Part shown: positions 40,755-64,000 of the stretch, one piece after another
How positions within the stretch are numbered: position 1 is the stretch's first letter
How the letters are laid out: each line of letters starts with the position of its first letter
Origin: Taiwanofungus camphoratus
Taxonomy: Eukaryota > Basidiomycota > Agaricomycetes > Polyporales > Taiwanofungaceae
Assembly (NCBI GenBank): GCA_003999685.1
Contig: CP021222.1
Coordinates: forward strand, 248,001 to 312,000
Reading direction: 5' to 3'
Length of the DNA: 64,000 nt
Program-made: the position numbers and the translations under genes
The notes under the pieces: model-generated
Databases searched by the model: none
Told to the model about the DNA's origin: nothing
Seen by the model: the letters and a program-made list of their open reading frames with translations, nothing else

Positions 40755-42742
40755 ATTGTGTTAAGCTGATCACGAAAGTAGATTGGTCTGGGAGAGTATA
40801 CTGAAAGAAGGACAAATACTGTATTGCCCTCAGAAATGCCAACTAACTAGAGCGCGGGCCAGTGCGGGCCGCCGCGGGGCCGTCGTGGAGTTGTGTACCC
40901 TCGCGGAATCAACCCCGCGGCCAATGGCCAGACATCATAGTCTAGCGACATTTCTCCTGCTCACTCACTGTCTTCCATTACCTTGAGTAACAATAGCAAT
41001 ACTGCCGACCGGAGCTCGTGCGGACACTAGCAGATCTGCTATCTCTTGGTACCTAGGAAGCGCACAAGTGTCAGTTTGACTCAGAACATGCACGAGATTA
41101 AACGGGACCGCAAGTACTCGAGTTGTCTCAAAAACACTGCAACCTTTGCATTTTCCGTTGACGTCTCCTACAATATATTGGTGCGATCCAGCAGCACAAC
41201 AACTTAAGTCGACGTTACTAGAGGGTGCCCAAATTATCCATCCTTGGCCAAGTCAATGACATGCAGGGCACGGTGAGTCCTTTGTACAAAGCTGAGATCT
41301 TAATCTGTCATATCTCGCTATAAAGGGAGTTTAGTAGGCGCATTTCGGGATGGCCATCGTCTCTGTGCGGACTCAGATATTTAAGTTATTATGGGTCCTT
41401 CACTGAGGTTCCAGGGCTTGGAAATACAGATCTAATCTGAATTCTCAAATCCTTGAGCGGGTATGAAGTGCCTGAGAGGCAACCATACCTGCTGTATTTC
41501 TTCGACGACTGCGCGTGATGCCTCGTTCCATATCGGTGAGGATCGATTCAGGGAACCGTCGTGAACAATTCGACTTGAATTAATGTAGCTTGATCTCTAC
41601 GTCTGGCGTCAAGTCAAGCCAACCTCCTTGCCTCGACACTACGATGCAACAAGGGCTTGGCCGTGACTCCATGCGTGGTGAGAATAACAATCATCGACTA
41701 CACACAAATCCTGGATCGGACCTTACCGATCCGTGGAGGCAGAGTCGACTGCAATCATGGACCATGCTGTGACGTTGCTGCGGACCTAGAACACGATTTA
41801 TGCTAGAGGCTTCATAGAACTGTGTGTCCTCAAAACAAGAAATCGCATTGGGGGTCCCATCCATACTATGGTATCCCATAGTATCTGGGTCCGTTATCCG
41901 ATCAAGCTTTATGCAGAAAGCAGTCGATCCCTCCCCTAAGTTCTTATCATCGAAGATTGCTGGTCGGAAGGCTTTTTCGCTTTCTCCAATGTTGGAGGAT
42001 TGTAAGAGAGTGATCGGCCTCTTCGGACTTGCGCTGCCTGCCAATAATATTTGTTCATGTCTCATCTTCGAGTTCTCATAAACGAACCGAGTAACGACTG
42101 ACAAACGGTCCCTTCGGACAGTGGACAGCACGCTGCGGATGTGAAGCAGATGGCTGCGCACTGATTCATACGCTGCCATTTCCGCCTCGCAGATCACCCA
42201 GTACAGCGCACGCATGTTGGTCGTTCTTGAATGCCGCGAATTGCAGAATATCATGGCACCACTGTTCGGCTCTGTCAGTATGCGGGTATGGCCTCAGATG
42301 GTCTTGGCTCTCCATTGCGCTGAAGCTCCAGCAGTAGTGCGTACCTCTCAACTAATAATAATTCTCATGATTCGACAAAAACAGGTTTACAAGGTTCCTA
42401 TTGAGTACGGTGTGGGGTGCATCTGATTGCGACTGCAGTTTCAAATCCATGTTCCCTAATATCCTCATTTACGTTGCAGCAGAACTTAAGACTATTCTGT
42501 GCTTGTCACTGGTACAGCTGCGCTATGATCGGCCATCATGGGGCTAATGCCATCCTCAGGCTACACACGACCTGCTTGCCAGGAAACTTTCTTGATACTG
42601 CGCCTTGGTCTTACTTGAGCATGCGGTACGTTCCAGACTTTTCTGAGACTGTCTATCTGGCCACCATTAATTATGTGTCCCAAGGACAAGCTTCCTTGTA
42701 TAAAAGCAGGTTGTATACGTTGCGGAAAATTGTTCTATACCC
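40755..42742. other. 2-kb region without a firm gene
   Basis: The longest frame is 42254-41691 on the minus strand (187 codons), starting at an ATG. It has a helical, Arg-rich first half (YESVRSHLLHIRSVLSTVRR) and no known motif. It could be a genuine orphan gene, but there is no supporting intron pattern. Otherwise the region is AT-rich and contains the promoters of the flanking genes. Confidence 0.3.
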
Positions 42743-43984
42743 ATGTCCAACATGTTCTTATATGTGATATATGCCTCTATCTTCAATTCCATGCTTTTGA
42801 TCTATATGATTATACGAAATCAAAGTTCCACACGGAAAGAAGCATCCTCTCAAGTTACGACACTGAACGACATACGCACGCTTCTGTCCCCTGAGACCCA
42901 TCTTTCCTACCAACTACTTTCACGAGCGATACCAAATGCACGCTTGAAGCGGGCATTCCGAATCGATAATTCCACCTTTGTCAGCCCCGACATCGCTGTT
43001 CACGATAATTTCACCAAGGTAGCGAAGTCACTGATATCATCTCCTGGTACATTTTCGTGGGCCCACTTTGCAGATAATGCAGATGATTCTGTTCGTGCAT
43101 ACCTGCACCGCCATTTATCGTCTGAACGTGCGACGGAGTGCACCTTCGAACGCTTCATACGGGTGCTCACATTGCATGTAGTCATTATCGGGCTCTTCAG
43201 GGCCGACGTTGGCACCTCGGAACAGGATTTCCTCGACGTTGACTTCGTCGCACGGGGCATCAACGATCTTTGGGCGATCTCAAAGACGTCTTCTACACCC
43301 CCTGGAGCTCTCCTCGAGAAGATCAACATTCGACTCCGCCGCTGGGTTCGCACATATTCAAACCCTGTCGAATTCATCATACCGGCATACGAGACAATGT
43401 GGCGAGTAGTTGCGGTCACAGTCGCGCTCAAACACAGTGATCATGAAGCTCGTCGGGCATTCCATTTATTCCTGCAGCAACCCGACTCTGATCAATTCCG
43501 CCGCTTTCTTGGCGAAGACCCAAGTGTGGAAGCAATCATACAAGAAGTATTGAGGCTGTACCCACCTACTCGGCATATCTCTCGCGCTGTCGCACCCACA
43601 TCGTTCCAGTTTCTCCCTTCATGGGTTACCCGCCTACTTTTTCAAGATGTCATCAAAGTAGCCGATATCGAGACTCTGCAAAGGGCAGATGTATGGGGTC
43701 CCACGGCTCAGGACTTTGACCCAATGCGTCACCATCCCGCGCGCTGCACTGATGAGCAGCGAAGAACATTGCTTATGTTCGGCTACGGCAAGTTGACATG
43801 TGTGGCAAAGAGCTGGGCGCCACGGGCCGCCGCTATCATAGTCGCTGCTGTCCTCGAGCAAGTTGGGACCACTAGCGCGTTCCATATCATTGAAGGGCCG
43901 AAGCTGGGGGGCAGAGGAGGGTGGGACGGCTGGATTGTGACGAGAGTCGCAGATGACCTCCCGACCGCTGACGACGTTTCTTGA
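42743..43984 (+). CDS. Cytochrome P450-like monooxygenase, intronless and short
   Basis: P450s are haem-thiolate oxygenases; substrate unknown. One open frame of 413 residues from ATG 42743. An N-terminal hydrophobic anchor (MFLYVIYASIFNSMLLIYMI, residues 4-23) fits ER membrane attachment. The K-helix ExxR appears as EVLRLYPPTRHISR; the region before the haem is DFDPMRHHPARCT; and the haem loop is FGYGKLTCVAK with the ligand Cys and the usual FGxGxxxC spacing. The I-helix position holds AYETMWRVVAVTV, without the AGADTT-type acid/Thr pair. At 413 residues it is about 80-100 shorter than typical fungal P450s, mostly before the I-helix. Absence of introns contrasts with nearly all neighbours. 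It could be an atypical P450 with altered chemistry. Confidence 0.8.
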   Translation: MSNMFLYVIYASIFNSMLLIYMIIRNQSSTRKEASSQVTTLNDIRTLLSPETHLSYQLLSRAIPNARLKRAFRIDNSTFVSPDIAVHDNFTKVAKSLISSPGTFSWAHFADNADDSVRAYLHRHLSSERATECTFERFIRVLTLHVVIIGLFRADVGTSEQDFLDVDFVARGINDLWAISKTSSTPPGALLEKINIRLRRWVRTYSNPVEFIIPAYETMWRVVAVTVALKHSDHEARRAFHLFLQQPDSDQFRRFLGEDPSVEAIIQEVLRLYPPTRHISRAVAPTSFQFLPSWVTRLLFQDVIKVADIETLQRADVWGPTAQDFDPMRHHPARCTDEQRRTLLMFGYGKLTCVAKSWAPRAAAIIVAAVLEQVGTTSAFHIIEGPKLGGRGGWDGWIVTRVADDLPTADDVS

Positions 43985-44184: not shown

Positions 44185-45629
<1,445 letters not shown>

Positions 45630-50862: not shown

Positions 50863-52972
50863 TTATTGAAGGCCCAACGACATATCCCAGAAACCTTTCT
50901 CCAGACGCGTGCATTGCTCCCATACCCCACGCCACTCTTGGAACCTACCGGGCGATGGTGGATCCGCTAAAGCGATTGCTTCTATAGTTTCTAGAATAGA
51001 CTCGGTATAAATATCGAAGCAGACAAATACTTAGACCGATGGTTCTCACCCAGGCCGATCTTAACAGCCGCTTGATAAACACTTCCGGAATAATCTTCGA
51101 TCCATTTCGCATACGGATTACCCTCCAGCTTGACCCAACTGTCGGACTTCGCTGCTTCTTTCTTTAACCACAGGCCAACTTCGCCGTACCCCAGCAGGCA
51201 TGCTGCCAGTGCCATGACGAGCTTGGCACTATCGCCTGTCATTCAGGAATGAGTACATGAGTCTCCCTCTGGGAATGATGGTCACCTTGAAGGCCTGTGT
51301 CAAGCAAATACGCGCCGTAGGCAGTAGTGGCGGGAGACTCGGGCGTGGCCTTCAACTCCTCTTCGCTGATGCCCCATTGAGTGCAGTACGATTGGTGCAT
51401 CGAAACTTCGTTGATCACGTTGATGATGGTGCTTGTGGCGGAATGGATGGAGGTAAATGTCGATGATTTTGCAGCGAGCAATCTACGTGCAAGAAATTAG
51501 CGTTAATTAGCCTAAGACGCATTTGACGTACCCGTATGCCCTGGCGTAATACTTTAGATATAAGTAATCTTGTCTTGACCACAAAATTAGTTTTTCGCAG
51601 TGCGTATGCTGAGAAAACGCGCACTTGATGAAATGCAGAAAACATTCAACCGGCAGAGTTCCTTTGGCAAGTTGCTTGACAAAGTCATGCTGAACATAGG
51701 CCTTCCAGATGTCTCTGGTAGACTCGATCAGTGTTCGTGTTAGCGGGTGACGATTACTCTCTGTGGGCCTATGGCATCAGATTAAGATAACGGCAGTAGT
51801 GCACACACAGAACTAGAAGCCTACTGGGGTATGATTCTAGGTAAGATGGGATGAAGATGATTCAAAGGTCCGTGTCCGTGGCCGATAGCAGAGGCAGTCT
51901 CAATGCCGATATGAGTGTATCTGGTGGCCATCCGGGTAGCTTCCACGACTAATAACATCAAAAGTCATCTTGAAGTCTACTATTGCATTATTTGCTGACT
52001 TACGACTTTCGCCTTGAGCCAAGGCACAAGCTATGGCAGCAGATAAGGTGCAACCCGTTCCGTGAGTGCTTGTAGAGTCTATGCGAGGACGAACAAATAG
52101 GGTAGCACCGTTCGACTCTTGAAGAACGTCTACAACCAAGGTACACGAGGAAAGATCCGGCTCAGCAACTTGCAGGATCTCCATGTTTTCCGCCAGGAGT
52201 CCTTCCCGAATTATACGGACTTCCGGGTGCATTGAGGACAGTCTGTTCACGTCTGCGATGGACGCTGTAATGTGCCCGCCTTTGAGAAGTGCACCTTTGG
52301 GGCCTAGTGACAGCAGGTTTTTTGCCGCAATGAGCATCTCTTCCAAGCTTTCGATTTTCGATGGGAAGCCTCGGTGTGAAAGAAGGAGCTCTGCTTCAGA
52401 TTTGTTGGGAGTGATCAAGGTCGCCAAGGGAAACAAATCCGTTATCATGACCTCGACAGCCTCAGGCTGTAGTAATGTATGTCCCGAAGTAGACACACAG
52501 ACAGGGTCGCAAATGAGTGGGGGTATCAAGAGACCGCCATAATGCGCATTCAGTGTCTGAGCGACCATGCGCGTATTAGCGGCGTCAAAAAGCATCCCTG
52601 TCTTGATTGCTTTAATTTCTATATCCTCTAACACCGATTGCACCTGCAGGCATCATTAGGCGTGGGGATGAGACGGATGGAGGGCGTGCGTACTTGCTGC
52701 TCAATAATTTGCGGAGGGGATGGATGAACCGCCTGGACGCCCTTGGTGTTCTGCGCCGTAAGTGCGGTCACGACACTTGTTCCATAACACCCAAGTGAGG
52801 TGAAAGTCTTCAGATCTGCCTGTGTAGCACATCAAACGAGCTGAATATGTTCTGATGACCGAAGGCGATCCGATGTTCTTACTTGTATACCAGCCCCACC
52901 GCTGGAGTCGGAGCCCGCAATGGACATCACAGCCGGGGGATTTGCTTTCATGAGTTTGGAATTCATGGTCAT
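50863..52972 (-). CDS. THI20: Bifunctional hydroxymethylpyrimidine phosphate kinase / TenA thiaminase-like (THI20 type)
   Basis: Makes HMP-PP for thiamine synthesis and salvages thiamine breakdown products. Exons 52972-52883, 52819-52694, 52643-52004, 51948-51825, 51768-51625, 51573-51532, 51482-51286, 51235-51050 and 50990-50863 are in phase; total 558 residues. The N-terminal ThiD kinase starts VMSIAGSDSSGGAGIQADLK, then VTALTAQNTKGVQAVHP, PLICDPVCVSTSGHTLL, ITPNKSEAELLL and the anion-hole motif STHGTGCTLSAAIACALAQG near residue 266. The C-terminal TenA domain runs from about residue 300: LTRTLIESTRDIWKAYVQHD, QDYLYLKYYARAYGLLAAK, ACLLGYGEVGLWL and NPYAKWIEDYSG. There is no signal peptide. 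Fungal Thi20/21/22 have the same order, though I cannot tell which paralogue this matches. Confidence 0.94.
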
Positions 52973-53238: not shown

Positions 53239-56016
53239 GGGTTGTCGGATCTCTCAAGAGAGCAGAAGGAGAACTAGAGAATATATCAGGCGGTGTGAAG
53301 GCGTGCTACGAAAAAGATGTAAGTCATCTTATTGCACTAAGGATTCGAAGTCTTGTTTGCGTTAGAGCGTGTTGTTGAGGATCAGAAGAATTGAAGACTC
53401 GTACGTGAACTTCCAGTCCTGAATGCAGGTGTCGGCAGGCTTAGCCAAGTCGTATTGCTGCAAGAGGACCGACGGGGTCTGCATGGATCTTATGTGGGGA
53501 GTATATTGTCAAAATATAATAAGAATTACTCACAATGGAACGAAAGAAAGATCATACTTTCACAACGCGACCGGCTTCAAGTTGTGTCCTGCTAATCATT
53601 TGAAGTACATACACAGCCAGTCGTTGGCACTCTGCTCACTATGGTAGTCCGTTAAAGCATGAGCAACGTTTCCCGATTATCATGAAGGCAGATGGATGTG
53701 TACGTTTGCGTAACGCGCACTGGCATGCCAGTGAATACGATATGTCACACAATTCACGTGATTGCGCGATCATATAACGTGATTATGGACTACACTCATC
53801 TCAACTTCTATCTTTCACAGTAAACCAACACCAAGTCGAAAGTTCTGAGAAACATGGATACTTTCAGAAGTAAGGCACGAGACTTTGTAGGGCGCACCTC
53901 CCAGAACCGATACGTCGCTAATTATTACCGCCATGTTTTTATTGCTGATACTCGTGATGTCTGTTCTATATCATGTTCAGCTGGCATACCTTCTATCTGT
54001 TCGGCATGCAGGCGGCTATTTTTGGGGAGAAAAATCACCCGCTGACACCTATAGACACCTCGGTGAAATACCTGCGAAGACGTGTCCCATAAAGAGTGCG
54101 GTTCGTAAGCTCCTGGCCTCAAAGTTCCCGCTGAGCGACTGATCATCATTGTGGCGGACTTTCCTATACACTCTGAGGCGCAATAAGGTTCTGTCACCCG
54201 TTCTCCTGAGCGGTCAAAATGGATGAAATGATACTGCCATAACTGTGAAGACGCGCCAACAATCACAATAGGTACTCTTCATTGCCATACAAGGAGTCGA
54301 GCAATTCCGGGTAATCAATACGTGCAGGACTGAGCCGGATCAGCGTCGTTCTCTTCCCGCTGCCACGGCTGTGGGCGTTATAGAAGCTCGCCATTCATAT
54401 CCGCGCTTGCGAGATGCTGGCTGTCAATGTGACGACTTTCCTCCTTTATGGTGTTTCTCACGCAAGAGCACGGGCGTCCATGTGTCGTTCAATTGTCTCG
54501 GCTCGGATAGCGATCTTTTCATTTTGAAGACATGCGTCCTCCTTGAGCTTCAGCTTCCACGGCGCGAGGTGCCTTGATGTGGGAATTGGTCGGTTCCGGT
54601 CATAGTACGTTGCAGCCTTGTGCGAGGCTGGCGCCTTGAGCTTCGCGTGGGAGAGCGTTTGTTTTGCCCACTTGCGCGATTTGCCTTCTAGGATACAGCT
54701 GTTCAGCGGTCGCCGTGTCCAAGTCACGATATGACAGGTGAGACACGCGGGCACCCGTGTGGGATGGTGCGCTCGGACATACCGATTCCGAGGTACCGTA
54801 CATCTGGAAATGCACCCGAGACGCCAAACCGTCGGCTTCCGGCGTGTGGATAAGGGGCAGCTATGTGCGTCATGACGATCTTCCGTATCAGAGTTCCATG
54901 GGTCGAGCCTGCTCAGCGCTCAGCCTAAGCTTCAAGGCTGATGATCACCCAAGCCTGCCACTTGTTTGATGCGGCAAGTCCCAGCCAGACATAATATTAG
55001 GTCCATCAACATGGACACTGAGGCCATATTAGCATCAACGTGCGCCTAGCAGACAAAAGACTCAACAGTGGGCTAGTCGTCTTGCTATCGGTAAACACAC
55101 CGGTACCGCACAGGGTACGTTGGTTGTTGATGCTCCTGTCACACACACATGGATGCCTGCACAGATAACAGATATAGCATAAGGATGCCTTGATTGTGGC
55201 TGCGACTTGTTGCCTTCGCGGCTACATTGTCTTCTTGCAAACTCATAGGCCAACCTGGACCTTTCTGACTTCGTGCGCCTATGCTTGGTTCGTCCGACTG
55301 TAATCTTGTATGTCCAAAAAATCCGAGCTGTCTAACAGTCAAAATGCTAGGAGTGAGGTGAATTCAAATTTGTATAAGCCTGGACCCATAGGCAGCTGTC
55401 ATTAGAAAGTATTCGCAGTCAAGTTCGAATTGAGCCCCACAATCAGAGACCATTATTTGCATATTTTTTCCTTTTATGCTCGAATTCAAATTGGGTGCGA
55501 ATATGCTGCCTCAGATCTCTGGAGAGTCCCGGCGGGTCGGGCGCTGCATTTCCGCGCATGAAATATTGAAACTATGAGCGCACGTTGGTTTATGAATAGA
55601 CGACTATTAATAGCCTTTATCACGAATAGCCCCACCAAATATAGAAATGACCATCAGAAGTGGGATCTCGCCTGTTATCTCGTTAGCGTGCAGAAAGACA
55701 CAGCGCCTCTGTATAGCCCTGCCATCAGCACCCACAGCATCGGTCTTCTCTCACAGACGCTCGTAAAATTTCGGATACACGGCAGTGGCTTCTCAAGCAC
55801 GCCTCTTCCGACTTCCAACGACGAGGAGCTGTGGAGAGCAAACGGATGCTTTCATTACCGTGAACGCCACGACGAAGCGTCCGCTATTGCTATAATTTCA
55901 CCATCATAACAGGGGACAGCAAACTTGGTTTTCACTCAAAGCCAGTGCTCTGTGTACCCAATTAGAGCACAGGCGAGGTATACTCGAGAGCGTTACACTC
56001 CCCAGGTCGTTCAACA
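53239..56016. other. 2.8-kb gene-poor region
   Basis: Only short open frames occur (53854-54045 +, 53933-54142 +, 54458-54754 -, 54757-54969 +, 55574-55909 +). None shows a known motif, and no in-phase exon chain was found. The stretch directly upstream of 56017 should hold the promoter of the esterase gene. I saw no terminal repeats or recognisable transposase, though old degraded DNA-transposon sequence cannot be excluded by eye. Confidence 0.3.
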
Positions 56017-57504
56017 ATGGTCGCCAGAAACATCGGGATTTTGTCTCTCGTAGCAGCATCTCTATTCAACCTGGCCCGGGCCACGTCTGGCTGCAGCCTG
56101 TCTTCGTCTCCCTGGAAGTTCGACAACACCAATCATGCTAATCGGACAATTGGCGACCGCTCGTTCTATGTTCACATTCCGGCGACATACAAGCAAAATG
56201 CCCCTCACCCGGTCGTATTGAGCTACCACGGCTACGGCGAAACGCCCACGATACAGGAGTCCATCTCGAGCCTTTCTGATGATAGTCTGCGGATAAACAA
56301 CTCGGTGTGTGTTGATCAGGTTCGCAACTGACCAACGCGATCTGATTTGACCCCCGGGGCCACAGGGCATAATCGCGGTCTATCCGTTTGGTTCGTATGG
56401 TCCTGGAAAGGAGGGCAACGAGTCCATAACTGCGTGGCAAGGAGCACCGTATGCTGCAGTGAGTCGACCGGGGCTTGCTCTCCAAGTCCGTTCCTTATCT
56501 CGAATCCCATCCCCCGGGGACAATAGCCTGGCGTGAATGATGTGCGCCTTTCAGCCCCTGACACTCCGTGCCTTGATTAATGCCATTGTCCAGATCGAGT
56601 TTACAACGAACATCATATCAGAACTCGAGCAGAATTTGTGTGTAGATACCAATAGAATCTACGCGTCCGGGAAAAGCGAGGTAAATTCTTGCGTATCCGG
56701 AGAGTTGCGCGTTCTGATCAAGGTGTCCGTCAGGGCGGTGGCTTTGTGAGATCCCAAAGTCTGGTATTCTTTCTCTGTTGACTGACCAAGATACGGGCAG
56801 ACCAATCTCCTTGCCTGCACCAATAGCACTTCCTCGCTTATAGCTGCTTATGCGCCCGTATCGGCGGCACTCTATGAGGGGACCTTGCCTTTCCAAGGAT
56901 GTGACAATGTGTCGAGGCCAGTCCCATTGATAAATTTTCATGGTTTGGCAGATCCCATTATCCCATACGGTGGACAGCTTGCGAACAATGTCGGCAACAA
57001 AAGCTGTGGGTACTCGGGCCAGCGGTCCTCCCAGCGCCCATTCACTCGCTGATGATTCTTCTCGGGTCGGTGATAGATGCCCTGCCCAACATTACGGTCT
57101 GGCGGGAGGAGTGGGCCACGCGGAACGGCTGCCCGGCGGGCAAGATCGACGAGATGTCGCAGGACAGCGGGATGCAGTTCGTCGCCTACACATGGAACTG
57201 CTCGCAGTCCGACGACCGCGCTGTGGTGCACGGGTTCTCCGTGATGGGGCTCGGGCACTCGTGGCCCAGCATACAGGGCCTCGACGGGCAGAAGACGCCG
57301 TTCAACGCGACCAACCAGTACATTGTGCCGTTCTTCCAGGAGTACGCGCTGGACTACGCGGCCAACTACACCTCCGGCGGCCAGAATTCGTCGGGCACGA
57401 ATCAATCCAGCAGTGCCCCCCGTAGCGTCTCTCCGTACGGAGCGGCCTTGCCGTACTATCTCTCGTGCTGTCTCTTATTGCTTGCGCTCGTCGGACACGT
57501 GTGA
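56017..57504 (+). CDS. Secreted feruloyl-esterase/PHB-depolymerase-like hydrolase, probably GPI-anchored
   Basis: An alpha/beta-hydrolase of the LpqC/feruloyl esterase B type that may cleave plant-wall esters. Exons 56017-56304, 56366-56458, 56527-56541, 56594-56680, 56734-56745, 56801-57005 and 57077-57504 are in phase (375 residues). An alternative donor at 56320 would extend exon 1 by five residues. Residues 1-22 form a signal peptide (NIGILSLVAASLFNLARA). The oxyanion region is VVLSYHGYGETP; the nucleophile elbow YASGKSEGGGF gives GxSxG across an intron; the likely acid Asp is in HGLADPIIPYGG; the His is in MGLGHSWPS. A Ser-rich stretch then a hydrophobic C-terminus (YYLSCCLLLLALVGHV) suggests a GPI signal. 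Exons 3 and 5 are micro-exons of 15 and 12 bp. Confidence 0.85.
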
Positions 57505-59681: not shown

Positions 59682-62600
59682 ATGTCTATACCTCTCTCCT
59701 TTCTCCCTGCCTTGCCAGGCCCCTCGTCGGGCTCATCTCTCGGCGACGCCCTCGCTCAACAGGTCACAGATTGTGGGCGGGTCACGACGCTCCTGGACTG
59801 TCTCCCTACCACTTCCTCTCCCGCGGTCTATGCTGTCGATGCTTCACGGCCACCGCTGTGCCATTCTACCATACACTCCTTCGTTTCCTCTTTTATTTTA
59901 CCGACCTCTGCTTCGACGCCGCCCCTCGGCCCCAATGACCGTGTCATGGTCGTGCTCCCCACCGGCGCCGCCAACGCGCTCGCCCTCCTCGCCCTCGCCA
60001 GCTATCACACCTGCGCTCCCGTGAACGCGAGCTGTACAGCGTCAGAGCTCAGGGAGGACGCCGAGAGACTCCGGGCGAGGGCCGTGGTGACGACAAGGAG
60101 CGCTGAAGACCGACTCCAGCTGCGCCGACTCCGCGCAGAGCTGGGATGCGAGATTGTCTACATCGAGGAACGCGCATCGGGAGAAGCGGGGCTGTTCGAC
60201 ATGCATACGATGGACGGCTCGGAAGGGACCCTAGACGAGCGAGTACCGCACAGGCTGCCGTCGCGCCTGCACGGCCTCAAGGACCAGTCGCTCGTCCTCC
60301 ACACCTCGGGGACGAGTGGCAAGAAAAAGGTGGTGCCCTACACGCTGCGGTCTCTCATCATTGGCACCTGTGCCGTTGTCAAGTCCTGGGATCTCAAGGC
60401 CGATGATGTCAATAGTAAGAATTTCCAATGTGCCGATTTCATATGTGTGCTGTGCGCTGACGGTGGCTCTATATATCTCAGTGAACATGATGCCTCTGTT
60501 CCACGTCGGCGGCATCGTCCGCAATCTCTTCTCGCCCATCATGTCTGGCGGTGCTGTGGTCATGTCTCCGGGCTTCGACGCGACAACGTTTTGGAACCTT
60601 GCGCAGAGCTTTGGTGCGACATGGTGCGTTGTTGCTGCCGTTCACTGCGGTGATATATTTAGACCTCGACGATCAGGTACTACGCAGCGCCGACCATGCA
60701 TCATGCTATTCTTGCTTCTCGCCCAGAGAATGTCGTTCCTTCCAAGCACACTCGTATTCGCATGATCTGTAACGCAGCCGGCGGCCTCCTACCCAATCTT
60801 GCCATAGATCTCAGAGACACGTTTGGTGGAGCCGTCGTCTTGCCTTCATATGGAATGACAGAGTGGGTTGTCTCCACACTCCCGGTTTGTTGTTCTTGGC
60901 ATAATTTGACGCCCGGACGCTGTCATATGCTAGATGTATGCCCATTGCTTCACCACCAACAAACTATGCACTTGACCGCCCTGGCTGCTCTGGAGTGGCC
61001 TGCGGGCCTTATCTTTCGATCCGCGATCCTCTCGACCGAGAGCGGGAGCTTCCCTGTGGACAGACTGGCGCCGTCTCCGTTCGCGGAATGCCGACCTTTG
61101 AAGGTTACGAGACCTCGCCGGACCCTGGCGTGCCTTTGGACACGTCCGCGTTCTCTTCAGAGGGGTGGTTTGATTCCGGCGACATGGGATACGTGGATGC
61201 CGACGGGTGCGTGCTGCTGTGCTATATATATCTTGACGTGGCTTCTCACTGGCTTGCATTGAACACCAGATATCTTTACATAACTGGACGCTCAAAGGAG
61301 ATTATCAACAAGGGGGGAGAGGTCATCTCGCCGTTCGAGATCGAGGAAGCCATCATGCTTGCCGCGAAGGATCGTGTCAAGGTTCGCGTCCCTTTTATAG
61401 ACCTTGATGTTTTCAAAATCAAATTGATCATTTTCAGACGACGCTGGCATTTGCCATCGAGCACGATGTCTTGCAAGAGACGATTGGTGTCGTCATTGTT
61501 CCCCAACCGGGCTCGAATCGCATCAGCCTCGCCGCTCTTCTGGAGTCGCTGAAGCGAGTTTAAAACTTTCTCTCTCCGTGGGCATCTGCTGATCAGCGAA
61601 TCTCAGATCTCAGCTGCACCCATCCAAGTGGCCATTTGCAGTTGTTTACATGGACGACGTGCCCAAGAACCAGGCAGGCAAACCTCTTCGGATTAAACTC
61701 GGCAGTCGTCTCGGGGTTGGTTGCCTTTCCGACGATGTGCCCGCTCTGCACCGCCACTTTGAAGCCGAGGTACCAGATCGAGAGACTCCGCTCTCTCAGC
61801 CCATTGCGTGCCGTAAGGTCGCGGTCGATCTCCCAGACATCCGGAAGCTCCTTTCCGATATCGATGGTGTGAACGACGTTGCCCTTCGTTTTGGGAACGA
61901 CGGCTCTCCAGAAGCGTTCGTCTCCGTCGGTGACAAGGCAAATCTCGACCCGGCCGACATAAAGACGGCGTTGTCGCGCACGCTTCATGACTATTCGATT
62001 CCCGACAAGCTCCACCTGTTCTCCCAGCCCTTGTTCAAGTCTGGCGCAGGCGAGATCGACTTCCGCGCGATGGAGGAGGACATCGAGCGCCGGAATGTAT
62101 CGAGCATGTCTCCGAGGGCGTTGGTGGTGCGCAACATCGTCGCAGAGCTCCTTCTCATCGAGCCGGGCAGTATCACCGGCGAATCGGACTTCTTCCTCCT
62201 TGGCGGCAACTCCCTTCTCCTCGGCCGACTGATGTACTTCATACGCAAGGAGACCGGCGTCAACGTCAGCATGTCGGCCATCTTCGCGAAGAGCACCATC
62301 AATGGCATCGCGCGTCTCATCGACGAAGAGGAGCTCGGCGGCACCAAGGACGACACGATCACCGAGTACGAGTACGCGAGCAGCTTCACGAGCTTCAATG
62401 CGCCCACCGTCTCTCATGGTTGGAACGTGCCAACGGGCCGCGGGCAGAACCACCCCTTGTCGCTGTTGGTGCAGATCATCCCTCTCGTTTTCTTCTATCC
62501 AATGAAGGCAGCACTTACATGTAAGTTTCACTCCGTTCGTTCGCGATTTGAATGCTCATTCGTGTTATGCCAGGGACCTTCCTACTCTTCATTCTTTCGT

Positions 62601-64000
62601 ATCTGGCCAAACACATTACTAACAGTTTCTGGGAGCGTATGGGTTCTCTACTATGTGCCATAGTCGTTGCCCGGCTGGCTGCCCGGGTCCTACCGCCGCT
62701 CGCTGCCGTTCTATTCAAATGGATTGTTATAGGGAAGTATCGCCCAGGCACATATCCCATGTATGTACATCGCCTTCTTCAGACGTGACGCTTGCTTATG
62801 AGATTCCTCCAGGTGGGGCAACTATCACCTGCGTTGGTGGATCGTCAACCAAGCCATCAGAGCTTCTGGCCGCGGTGTATTTGCCGTCCACCCGTCGTTT
62901 GAGAAGTTCTACTATCGCTTGCTCGGGGCAAGGATCGGCAAGAACGTGGTGATCGACAGAACGTCCAAACTTGGCGAATTCGACCTGCTTGACTTCAGGG
63001 ATGGCTGCCGGATCGACAGGGCCCTCGTGCGTGGCTTCTGTGTCGAGCGGGATGGCTATTTCCGATTGGGCCACATCGTCATCGGCCAGAACGCTGTCGT
63101 CAACACTTATACCCAAATTGCCCCCGGATCAGTGATCGCAGACGGTACCGTTTACGGGCCTCATTCGTCATCCCATGCACAACCCTCACACAGAAGCTAC
63201 AAGAACTGCAATCGGACTCTCTTCCCACAACCACACATCCTACTTAAACTATTCGTCGCGTTTCCTATAATATTCATTGTCAAGCTTGTGTCATGTCAGT
63301 CATATGTCGTTCTGTTTGTCGTTGTCGCTTGTGCTGATGTGCCGCCAGATATTCCTTGGTTCCTCGCTATCAAGCTCATGTTAGCGCGCACGTTCGTTAC
63401 TCCGCCACAGGCCAACTCCGTTATAAAAGTGATCTGGTGGTTTGCAAACCCTCATCGAATCGGGTGGCACGCCTTGGCTCGCGTCATCAGAGCGGTTTTC
63501 ACGCCCTTGGTCCAGTTAATTCTGGGGATCGTCGTTAAACGCGTCATGGGTTTTAATAGTGAAGGCCCGGCTTCAGAAGCGAGCCAGTTAACACTCCTCC
63601 GACGCCATATCAACGGTGTCTTGTTGTCGCAATCGGATCTCAAGCGTGCTTTCGATATCCTCGGTACTCACTATGAGATGACGTCGATCGTTTTTCGTCT
63701 CATGGGTGCCAAGGTCGGCAAACGCGTGTACTGGCCAGGTTCAGGGATCGACTGCCCCGATCCAGAGCTTTTGGAGATTGGGGACGACGTCGTGTTCGGC
63801 TCTCGCTCTGAATTGTTTACTACGGACAGGATTGGATCCAAGAAGATTCGTATCGGCGCCGGAGCTATGGTTGCTGATCGTTGCGTCCTTCTCCCGGGAG
63901 TGCAAGTGGGAAGGCGTGCCGTCCTTGGCTCTGGATCACTTGCTAGACGCGATGGCGTTTATGAAGACAATTCAACCTGGATGGGCAATGGTGCGCTTTT
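59682..64000 (+). CDS. NRPS-like enzyme: adenylation, carrier and membrane/beta-helix Pls-type C-terminus (3' end outside window)
   Basis: The A domain should load an acid as an adenylate onto the carrier arm; substrate unknown. Exons 59682-60414, 60482-60623, 60677-60862, 60934-61206, 61270-61381, 61438-61557, 61614-62520, 62574-62760, 62813-63294 and 63349 onward are in phase; 1264 residues are visible. A motifs: LHTSGTSGKKKVVPYT near 208 (A3), PLFHVGG, YGMTE (A5), GWFDSGDMGYVDADG (A7), YLYITGRSKEIINKGGE (A8) and PKNQAGKPLR (A10, catalytic Lys). The carrier site FFLLGGNSLL (Ser near 720) follows. Several hydrophobic spans start near 800 (LLVQIIPLVFFYPM, TFLLFILSYLAKHI) and alternate with hexapeptide-repeat beta-helix segments (GARIGKNVVIDR, GQNAVVNTYTQIAPGSVIAD; later GAKVGKRVYWPG, GAGAMVADRCVLLPGVQVGR). 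This matches the TIGR02353-type terminal domain of poly-lysine synthetase-like NRPSs. No thioesterase or reductase is seen. Confidence 0.88.

Follow-up and report, generated by a model that had tools for sequence, protein, structure and literature searches.

What product would a fungal gene make in which a putative acid-activating domain is joined to the membrane half of a poly-lysine-type synthetase? This question is raised by a locus at the end of the 64,000-nucleotide stretch of Taiwanofungus camphoratus DNA that we analysed (hereafter the window; contig CP021222.1, C3:248001-312000, in a 33.2-Mb genome of 15 contigs), where a gene beginning with an ATG at 59682 on the plus strand runs beyond the window edge at 64000 to a stop at genome position C3:313368. 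We propose, with moderate confidence and by analogy, that the encoded enzyme is bound to the membrane, works with a carrier and links units of a carboxylic acid, most likely a hydroxy- or dicarboxylic acid that is anionic, into a polymer, much as the polymalate synthetase of the yeast-like ascomycete Aureobasidium does. The domain composition suggests that the product may be an acid polymer or conjugate and that the enzyme is perhaps controlled by ubiquitin; poly-lysine, the link drawn in an initial annotation of the locus, is unlikely.

The splice model was built by hand from reading frame, GT-AG sites and domain continuity, including contig bases past the window; as it derives from sequence only, individual splice sites may be off. 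It comprises 14 exons with a coding sequence of 4941 nt (1646 aa) and 13 introns of 52-71 nt, all of the GT-AG type, ten of them with a CTNA branch-like motif ahead of the acceptor. Ten exons lie within the window (59682-60414, 60482-60623, 60677-60862, 60934-61206, 61270-61381, 61438-61557, 61614-62520, 62574-62760, 62813-63294 and 63349-63990, plus strand), and exons 11-14, past it on the same strand up to C3:313368, encode the rest of the second beta-helix domain, membrane segments 5-6, the third beta-helix domain and a RING finger. The predicted protein thus runs from an adenylation (A) domain through a second A_sub-like piece and a carrier to three successive units, each made of a membrane-helix pair and a beta-helix domain (C1, C2 and C3), and on to the C-terminal RING. 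Over the full protein, Pfam reports AMP-binding (residues 82-412, 140 bits), PP-binding (694-758, 42.6 bits), Hexapep (52.2 bits) and a C3HC4 RING (1589-1626, 36.9 bits), all above cut-off, and none of the 19 families listed is a condensation, thioesterase or reductase family, and such domains were rejected on this ground. The continuous chain of A domain, carrier, membrane spans and hexapeptide repeats read in the initial annotation is therefore confirmed, as is its lack of condensation, reductase and thioesterase domains; the region past 64000, singled out there as the place where a reductase or thioesterase might yet appear, holds the third beta-helix domain and the RING and neither of these.

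The A domain (residues 54-551; 59841..61700, plus strand, with its A_sub from 61283; PF00501, 140 bits) is of the acyl-CoA-ligase type. It keeps the ATP-binding loop, SYGMTE, GD, GRxKE and the A10 lysine, and its motifs read LHTSGTSGKKK (60297-60329), SYGMTE (60846-60934, spanning an intron), GRSKEIINKGGE (61286-61321) and PKNQAGKP (61662-61685), all on the plus strand. Its best relatives in the PDB are oxalyl-CoA synthetases (1.1e-60 for 6qjz, then 2.4e-54 and 1.8e-46; the set consists of 6qjz, 5ie0 and 8aff), followed further down by malonyl-CoA synthetase (4.1e-34) and 4-coumarate ligase (6.4e-28), which agrees with the acyl-CoA-ligase likeness already seen in the initial annotation. Oxalyl- and malonyl-CoA synthetases (AAE3/Pcs60 and MatB) are stand-alone CoA ligases, whereas here the domain is fused to a carrier and a membrane half and some residues near the pocket are changed. 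Oxalate itself as the activated acid was rejected as too weak a proposal, since residues near the pocket differ from those of oxalyl-CoA synthetases. Elsewhere in the genome no canonical oxalyl-CoA synthetase stood out in an exon-wise search, a search unable to show absence.

The specificity code also departs from that of the epsilon-poly-lysine synthetases (Pls). The fungal domain was aligned with A domains of prokaryotic Pls (42 rows including the query), and the ten code positions were located by an assumed mapping scheme. They read H V R Y C G S P I K in the fungal protein, where Azospirillum has D L E D I G S V V K and a Streptomyces Pls has D A E S I G T V V K. The position of Asp235 is taken by His and that of Glu239 by an Arg whose placement is uncertain, so that the comparison with Pls proposed in the initial annotation finds the diamino-acid pair absent. 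PosA, the delta-poly-ornithine synthetase, is reported to use the matching Asp to bind the alpha-amine and the Glu to bind the side-chain (delta-) amine (PMC10522769). A pocket with His and, if correctly placed, Arg would suit a diamino acid less well than an anionic one.

Between A domain and carrier lies a piece of about 90 residues (about 586-674; 61803..62069, plus strand) that has no Pfam A_sub match and yet resembles the A_sub of Pls. Compared by hhalign with a profile of 72 prokaryotic Pls A_sub rows, it reached a probability of 93.3 (E 2.7e-7), against 0.3 for a shuffled copy and 0.5 for an unrelated segment. Four-row profiles from six random draws of Pls rows gave 75.7-93.2 for this second piece and 3.6-71.3 for the protein's true A_sub, while a profile of four acyl-CoA-ligase A_sub rows gave 8.5 (E 0.004) and 98.2, respectively. 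The second piece has GEIDF in place of the GKxDR that supplies the catalytic Lys of A_sub. The simplest reading of these profile comparisons is that it may be the remnant of a replaced Pls-type A domain, being nearer to the A_sub of Pls than to that of acyl-CoA ligases.

The carrier protein (residues 694-758; 62127..62321, plus strand; PF00550, 42.6 bits) has its phosphopantetheine serine in LGGNSLL (62199-62219), and the genome holds two matches over cut-off to the phosphopantetheinyl transferase family PF01648. Downstream of it, Kyte-Doolittle windows over 1.6, grouped by eye, delimit three pairs of membrane segments, of which segment 1 barely passes (1.64-1.66 vs 1.6), besides one hydrophobic stretch within the A domain. 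Segments 1-2 (residues 804-832 and 847-877; 62457..62731) and 3-4 (1027-1060 and 1090-1115; 63231..63551), each pair with an intron within, precede C1 (888-1012; 62814..63188) and C2 (1130-1270; 63594..64000, ending at C3:312074 just beyond the window), all on the plus strand. TIGR02353, the NCBIfam model of the Pls/PosA terminal domain, matches three stretches with 184 bits in total, below its curated cut-off of 423.1, and gives 111, 46.9 and 48 bits when the membrane half is cut in three; the best Hexapep stretch (1214-1244) falls in C2. The profile check proposed in the initial annotation thus returned the expected family in three stretches, at a score that stays under the threshold for membership.

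Structures were modelled for two single exons, with 28 relatives each. The AlphaFold2 models of C1 (pLDDT 82.6, with piece residues 119-136 below 50) and of membrane pair 2 with C2 (78.9, with lower values across the membrane segments) each combine helices with short strands stacked in a ladder like that of left-handed beta-helices. In Foldseek, C2 has nine PDB matches at E<=0.001, to hexapeptide acyltransferases, the best being maltose O-acetyltransferase (2.0e-4). We conclude that three tandem beta-helix domains are present, as the initial annotation had anticipated, C1 and C2 being predicted from models (the fold search reaching significance for C2 alone) and C3 from sequence.

Prokaryotic relatives of this membrane half differ from the fungal protein in what they carry in front of it. 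A tblastn search with carrier and membrane half against 72,556 plasmid records matched 65 of them, and among the 40 rows listed every gene named under a match is annotated as Pls/PosA, Pls, amino-acid-adenylation or NRPS (nonribosomal peptide synthetase), the rest having no named gene; together with the TIGR02353 matches this bears out the Pls/PosA layout described in the initial annotation. Six bacterial Pls-type membrane halves align across the three domains at 20-24% identity. A pattern-based scan of 84,980 prokaryote species, one genome per species, yielded 424 confirmed relatives, and the analysis used the best 80 among them. An A domain lies in the open frame in 78 of these 80, the other two (L073 and L090) having none in frame; all 78 match the Azospirillum amino-acid A domain at 174-609 bits (three of them over fewer than 400 residues), and the same loci match the fungal A domain at no more than 47.8 bits, with any match at all in 70 of the best 80. 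Since an A domain of the fungal type occurs in none of the best 80 of the 424 and identity to relatives in the modelled pieces is 18-29%, a recent bacterial transfer that included the A domain is ruled out. A second Pls-type gene in the genome is likewise ruled out, all three TIGR02353 matches of an exon-wise search falling inside this gene. Among the 74 rows with frames over 1200 aa (59 of 1296-1400 aa and 15 longer, vs 1646 aa in the fungal protein), there are 126 columns in which 85% or more of the rows agree, and the fungal protein keeps 61 of these. It retains the KW, G, YPxWG and RxW positions ahead of C1 and E1460, D1462 and H1480 in C3, and has lost most of the GSPA end of C1 and all but the His of the C3 motif QTHLxEDRxMK.

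The RING finger at the C-terminus has the C3HC4 ligands in canonical spacing (C1589, C1592, C1604, H1606, C1609, C1612, C1623 and C1626), and Pfam zf-C3HC4_2 matches the 65-aa RING piece at 3.1e-11. Its nearest solved relative is RNF4 (2.2e-8 against a single RING, 6.2e-17 against a construct with two in tandem), with which it shares the KRxxPIY tail, an element that in RNF4 takes part in dimer and ubiquitin contacts. These features suggest a fused E3-type RING for which ubiquitin transfer would be predicted; what sets it apart from RNF4-type E3 ligases is its attachment to a biosynthetic membrane enzyme. Ligands one to five of the eight that bind zinc are encoded in the same stop-free exon and frame as the close of C3, from which a linker of about 43 residues separates them; the last intron splits the RING, leaving the last three ligands to the last exon. 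The best other match in the genome reaches E 4.9e-5 (40% identity over 43 residues), and the RING is therefore not a fresh local copy. The RING is expected on the cytosolic side, since the membrane segments are even in number and the A domain and carrier depend on ATP and phosphopantetheine from the cytosol. One literature search pairing RING finger with NRPS terms, the sole basis for this negative, found no such fusion in print.

How does this protein stand to the systems already described? With Pls and PosA it shares the carrier, three membrane pairs, three beta-helix domains and the absence of condensation and thioesterase domains, and it differs from them in its A-domain subfamily, in its TIGR02353 score (184 vs 423 bits), in the mostly lost C3 motif, in the second A_sub and in the RING. 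Because it lacks defining features of Pls (a score over the cut-off, the A-domain residues, the C3 motif), we place it outside the Pls/PosA family. Epls of Epichloe festucae is a fungal protein likewise composed of A domain, carrier, six membrane segments and C1-C3, yet it is reported to retain a pocket for lysine and to share 51% identity with Streptomyces Pls (PMC7179176), against the 20-24% found here for the membrane half. Other fungal Pls-type members, Botryobasidium among them, are described as having amino-acid codes and lengths below 1500 residues (PMC10522769). The closest functional precedent is the Aureobasidium polymalate synthetase, reported to have a gene segment of 5049 bp and to combine six membrane segments with domains of the adenylation, thiolation and condensation types, a thioesterase being absent (PMC9210645, PMC11905612). 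Set beside this published description, our protein agrees with QHD40385.1 in domain set (A, carrier and condensation-like functions in one membrane protein, no thioesterase), in segment number, in a length of about 5 kb and probably in a non-amino-acid substrate, but not in the N-terminal position that a review gives for the segments. We assign it to neither the Pls/PosA nor the polymalate family and liken it to the latter by description only. Should the polymalate synthetase share the A-domain type, the second A_sub and the RING, our protein would be a member of that kind in another fungus, and otherwise a new variant. As far as we searched, the exchange of the A domain with a leftover A_sub and the RING fusion are new, while fungal Pls-type enzymes were already known. 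The interpretation in the initial annotation is therefore supported for the membrane layout and the A-domain type and unsupported for poly-lysine, and it had passed over the RING, the second A_sub and the polymalate precedent.

Several observations weigh against an acid polymerase of the polymalate kind. The top NCBIfam models for the A domain are fatty-acid CoA ligases, a FadD7-type one (215 bits) and a long-chain one (189 bits), both far under cut-off, which leaves room for an acid other than a dicarboxylate. Near-pocket residues common to oxalyl-CoA synthetases are altered (FHVHG to FHVGG, TEASH to TECMP), and a two-residue alignment gap at the Glu239 position makes the Arg there uncertain. 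The true A_sub also matches the 72-row Pls profile (probability 83.7, E 8e-6), the fungal protein departs from the prokaryotic membrane half at 65 of the 126 conserved columns, and the Foldseek matches of C1, though of the same kind as those of C2, are weak (none at E<=0.001, best 9.5e-3). A review puts the six membrane segments of the polymalate synthetase in its N-terminal part, unlike those of our protein as compared by description, and states that restoring the gene returned only one third of the polymer. The splice model and the RING fusion, moreover, are a hand-built prediction. The review's placement of the segments and the NCBIfam ranking weaken the polymer reading and strengthen the possibility that the enzyme is an acyltransferase, which would activate an acid, perhaps fatty or aryl, and give single acyls to a membrane lipid, sterol or sugar. 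That C2 finds its fold matches among acyltransferases acting on sugars and serine by single transfer, that fatty-acid CoA ligases lead the NCBIfam models (under cut-off) and that the C3 motif and the GSPA end of C1 are mostly lost, so that polymerisation may not be retained, all speak for it; the three beta-helix domains and six membrane segments, retained as in known polymer makers, and E1460, D1462 and H1480 of C3 speak for polymerisation instead, and we regard single transfer as the main rival account, less likely than polymerisation.

Far less probable, in our view hardly so at all, is a cationic homopoly(amino acid) synthetase of the poly-lysine or poly-ornithine type. The membrane half is indeed of the same kind, by TIGR02353 and the plasmid matches, and precedents are described: fungal Epls works in this way in Epichloe (PMC7179176), and fungal members including Botryobasidium have amino-acid codes (PMC10522769). 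The A domain, however, belongs to another subfamily and has His at position 235, and 78 of the best 80 prokaryotic relatives carry an amino-acid A domain, the other two none in open frame; the differing A-domain type of the relatives, the change of Asp/Glu to His/Arg, the loss of the C3 motif bar its His and the TIGR02353 score under cut-off together leave the poly-lysine link of the initial annotation unsupported. Independent of what the enzyme makes is the question whether the RING belongs to it, or is a separate downstream gene or splice-model artefact, the enzyme ending after C3. The splice model is hand-built and, as the last intron splits the RING, a shortened form could also arise; on the other side, the frame of exon 13, which carries C3 on through the linker into the RING, stayed open in 105 of 20000 mononucleotide shuffles, and a separate gene begun at the Met immediately ahead of the RING would give a protein of 65 aa. 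A separate RING is thus quite unlikely.

The surroundings of the gene were also inspected, and a gene cluster was rejected, the upstream neighbour being feruloyl-esterase-like and the downstream one sugar-transporter-like. The former (55966-57504) is a multi-exon hydrolase-like gene, secreted-looking by eye, whose first half matches the feruloyl esterase PDB 9j07 (E 1.7e-8) and whose hydrophobic C-terminal tail suggests a membrane or glycosylphosphatidylinositol (GPI) anchor; the hand-joined protein matches no Pfam family at E<=0.01. The latter lies just past the window (L009:8700-10000) and gives Sugar_tr at 3.2e-24 on one hand-joined piece. Further upstream are a 426-aa open frame (42704-43984) that is possibly divergent P450-like, with a cytochrome P450 match over residues 274-385 only (21.1 vs a cut-off of 22.8 bits), a gene for a class I tRNA synthetase of the W/Y type in two open frames (44188-45381, minus strand) and one for phosphomethylpyrimidine kinase (51900-52652, minus strand; PF08543, 6.6e-47).

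If the gene encodes an acid-polymerising synthetase, its A domain would, judging by its subfamily, turn the acid and ATP into an acyl-AMP, and the acyl would then be loaded onto the carrier arm, whose serine is present. The beta-helix domains, on the cytosolic side, may transfer the acyl to an acceptor such as the hydroxyl of the growing chain, which would exit through the membrane. The enzyme could have arisen when a whole acyl-CoA ligase was put before a Pls-type enzyme that lost its own A core, the dead A_sub being left beside the carrier, and a RING in the cytosol could bring in an E2 to attach ubiquitin to the synthetase or to proteins near it. We put forward tentatively the more specific proposal of a polyester-type synthetase with an acyl-CoA-ligase-type A domain transplanted onto a Pls membrane polymerase, a fossil A_sub and its own E3, which would tune the amount of enzyme or mark membrane neighbours.

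The C-terminal domain of Pls/PosA was reported to be without an experimental structure in 2023 (PMC10522769), and a natural member with a putatively acid-activating A domain and a changed C3 motif helps to part substrate-linked from catalysis-linked residues. The gene also directs attention to acid polymers or conjugates of fungi that would escape a search based on amino-acid codes. If the RING fusion is true, a ubiquitin ligase covalently tied to a carrier-protein polymerase would be a new mode of regulating biosynthesis, and may tie ubiquitin signalling directly and physically to a membrane enzyme of biosynthesis.

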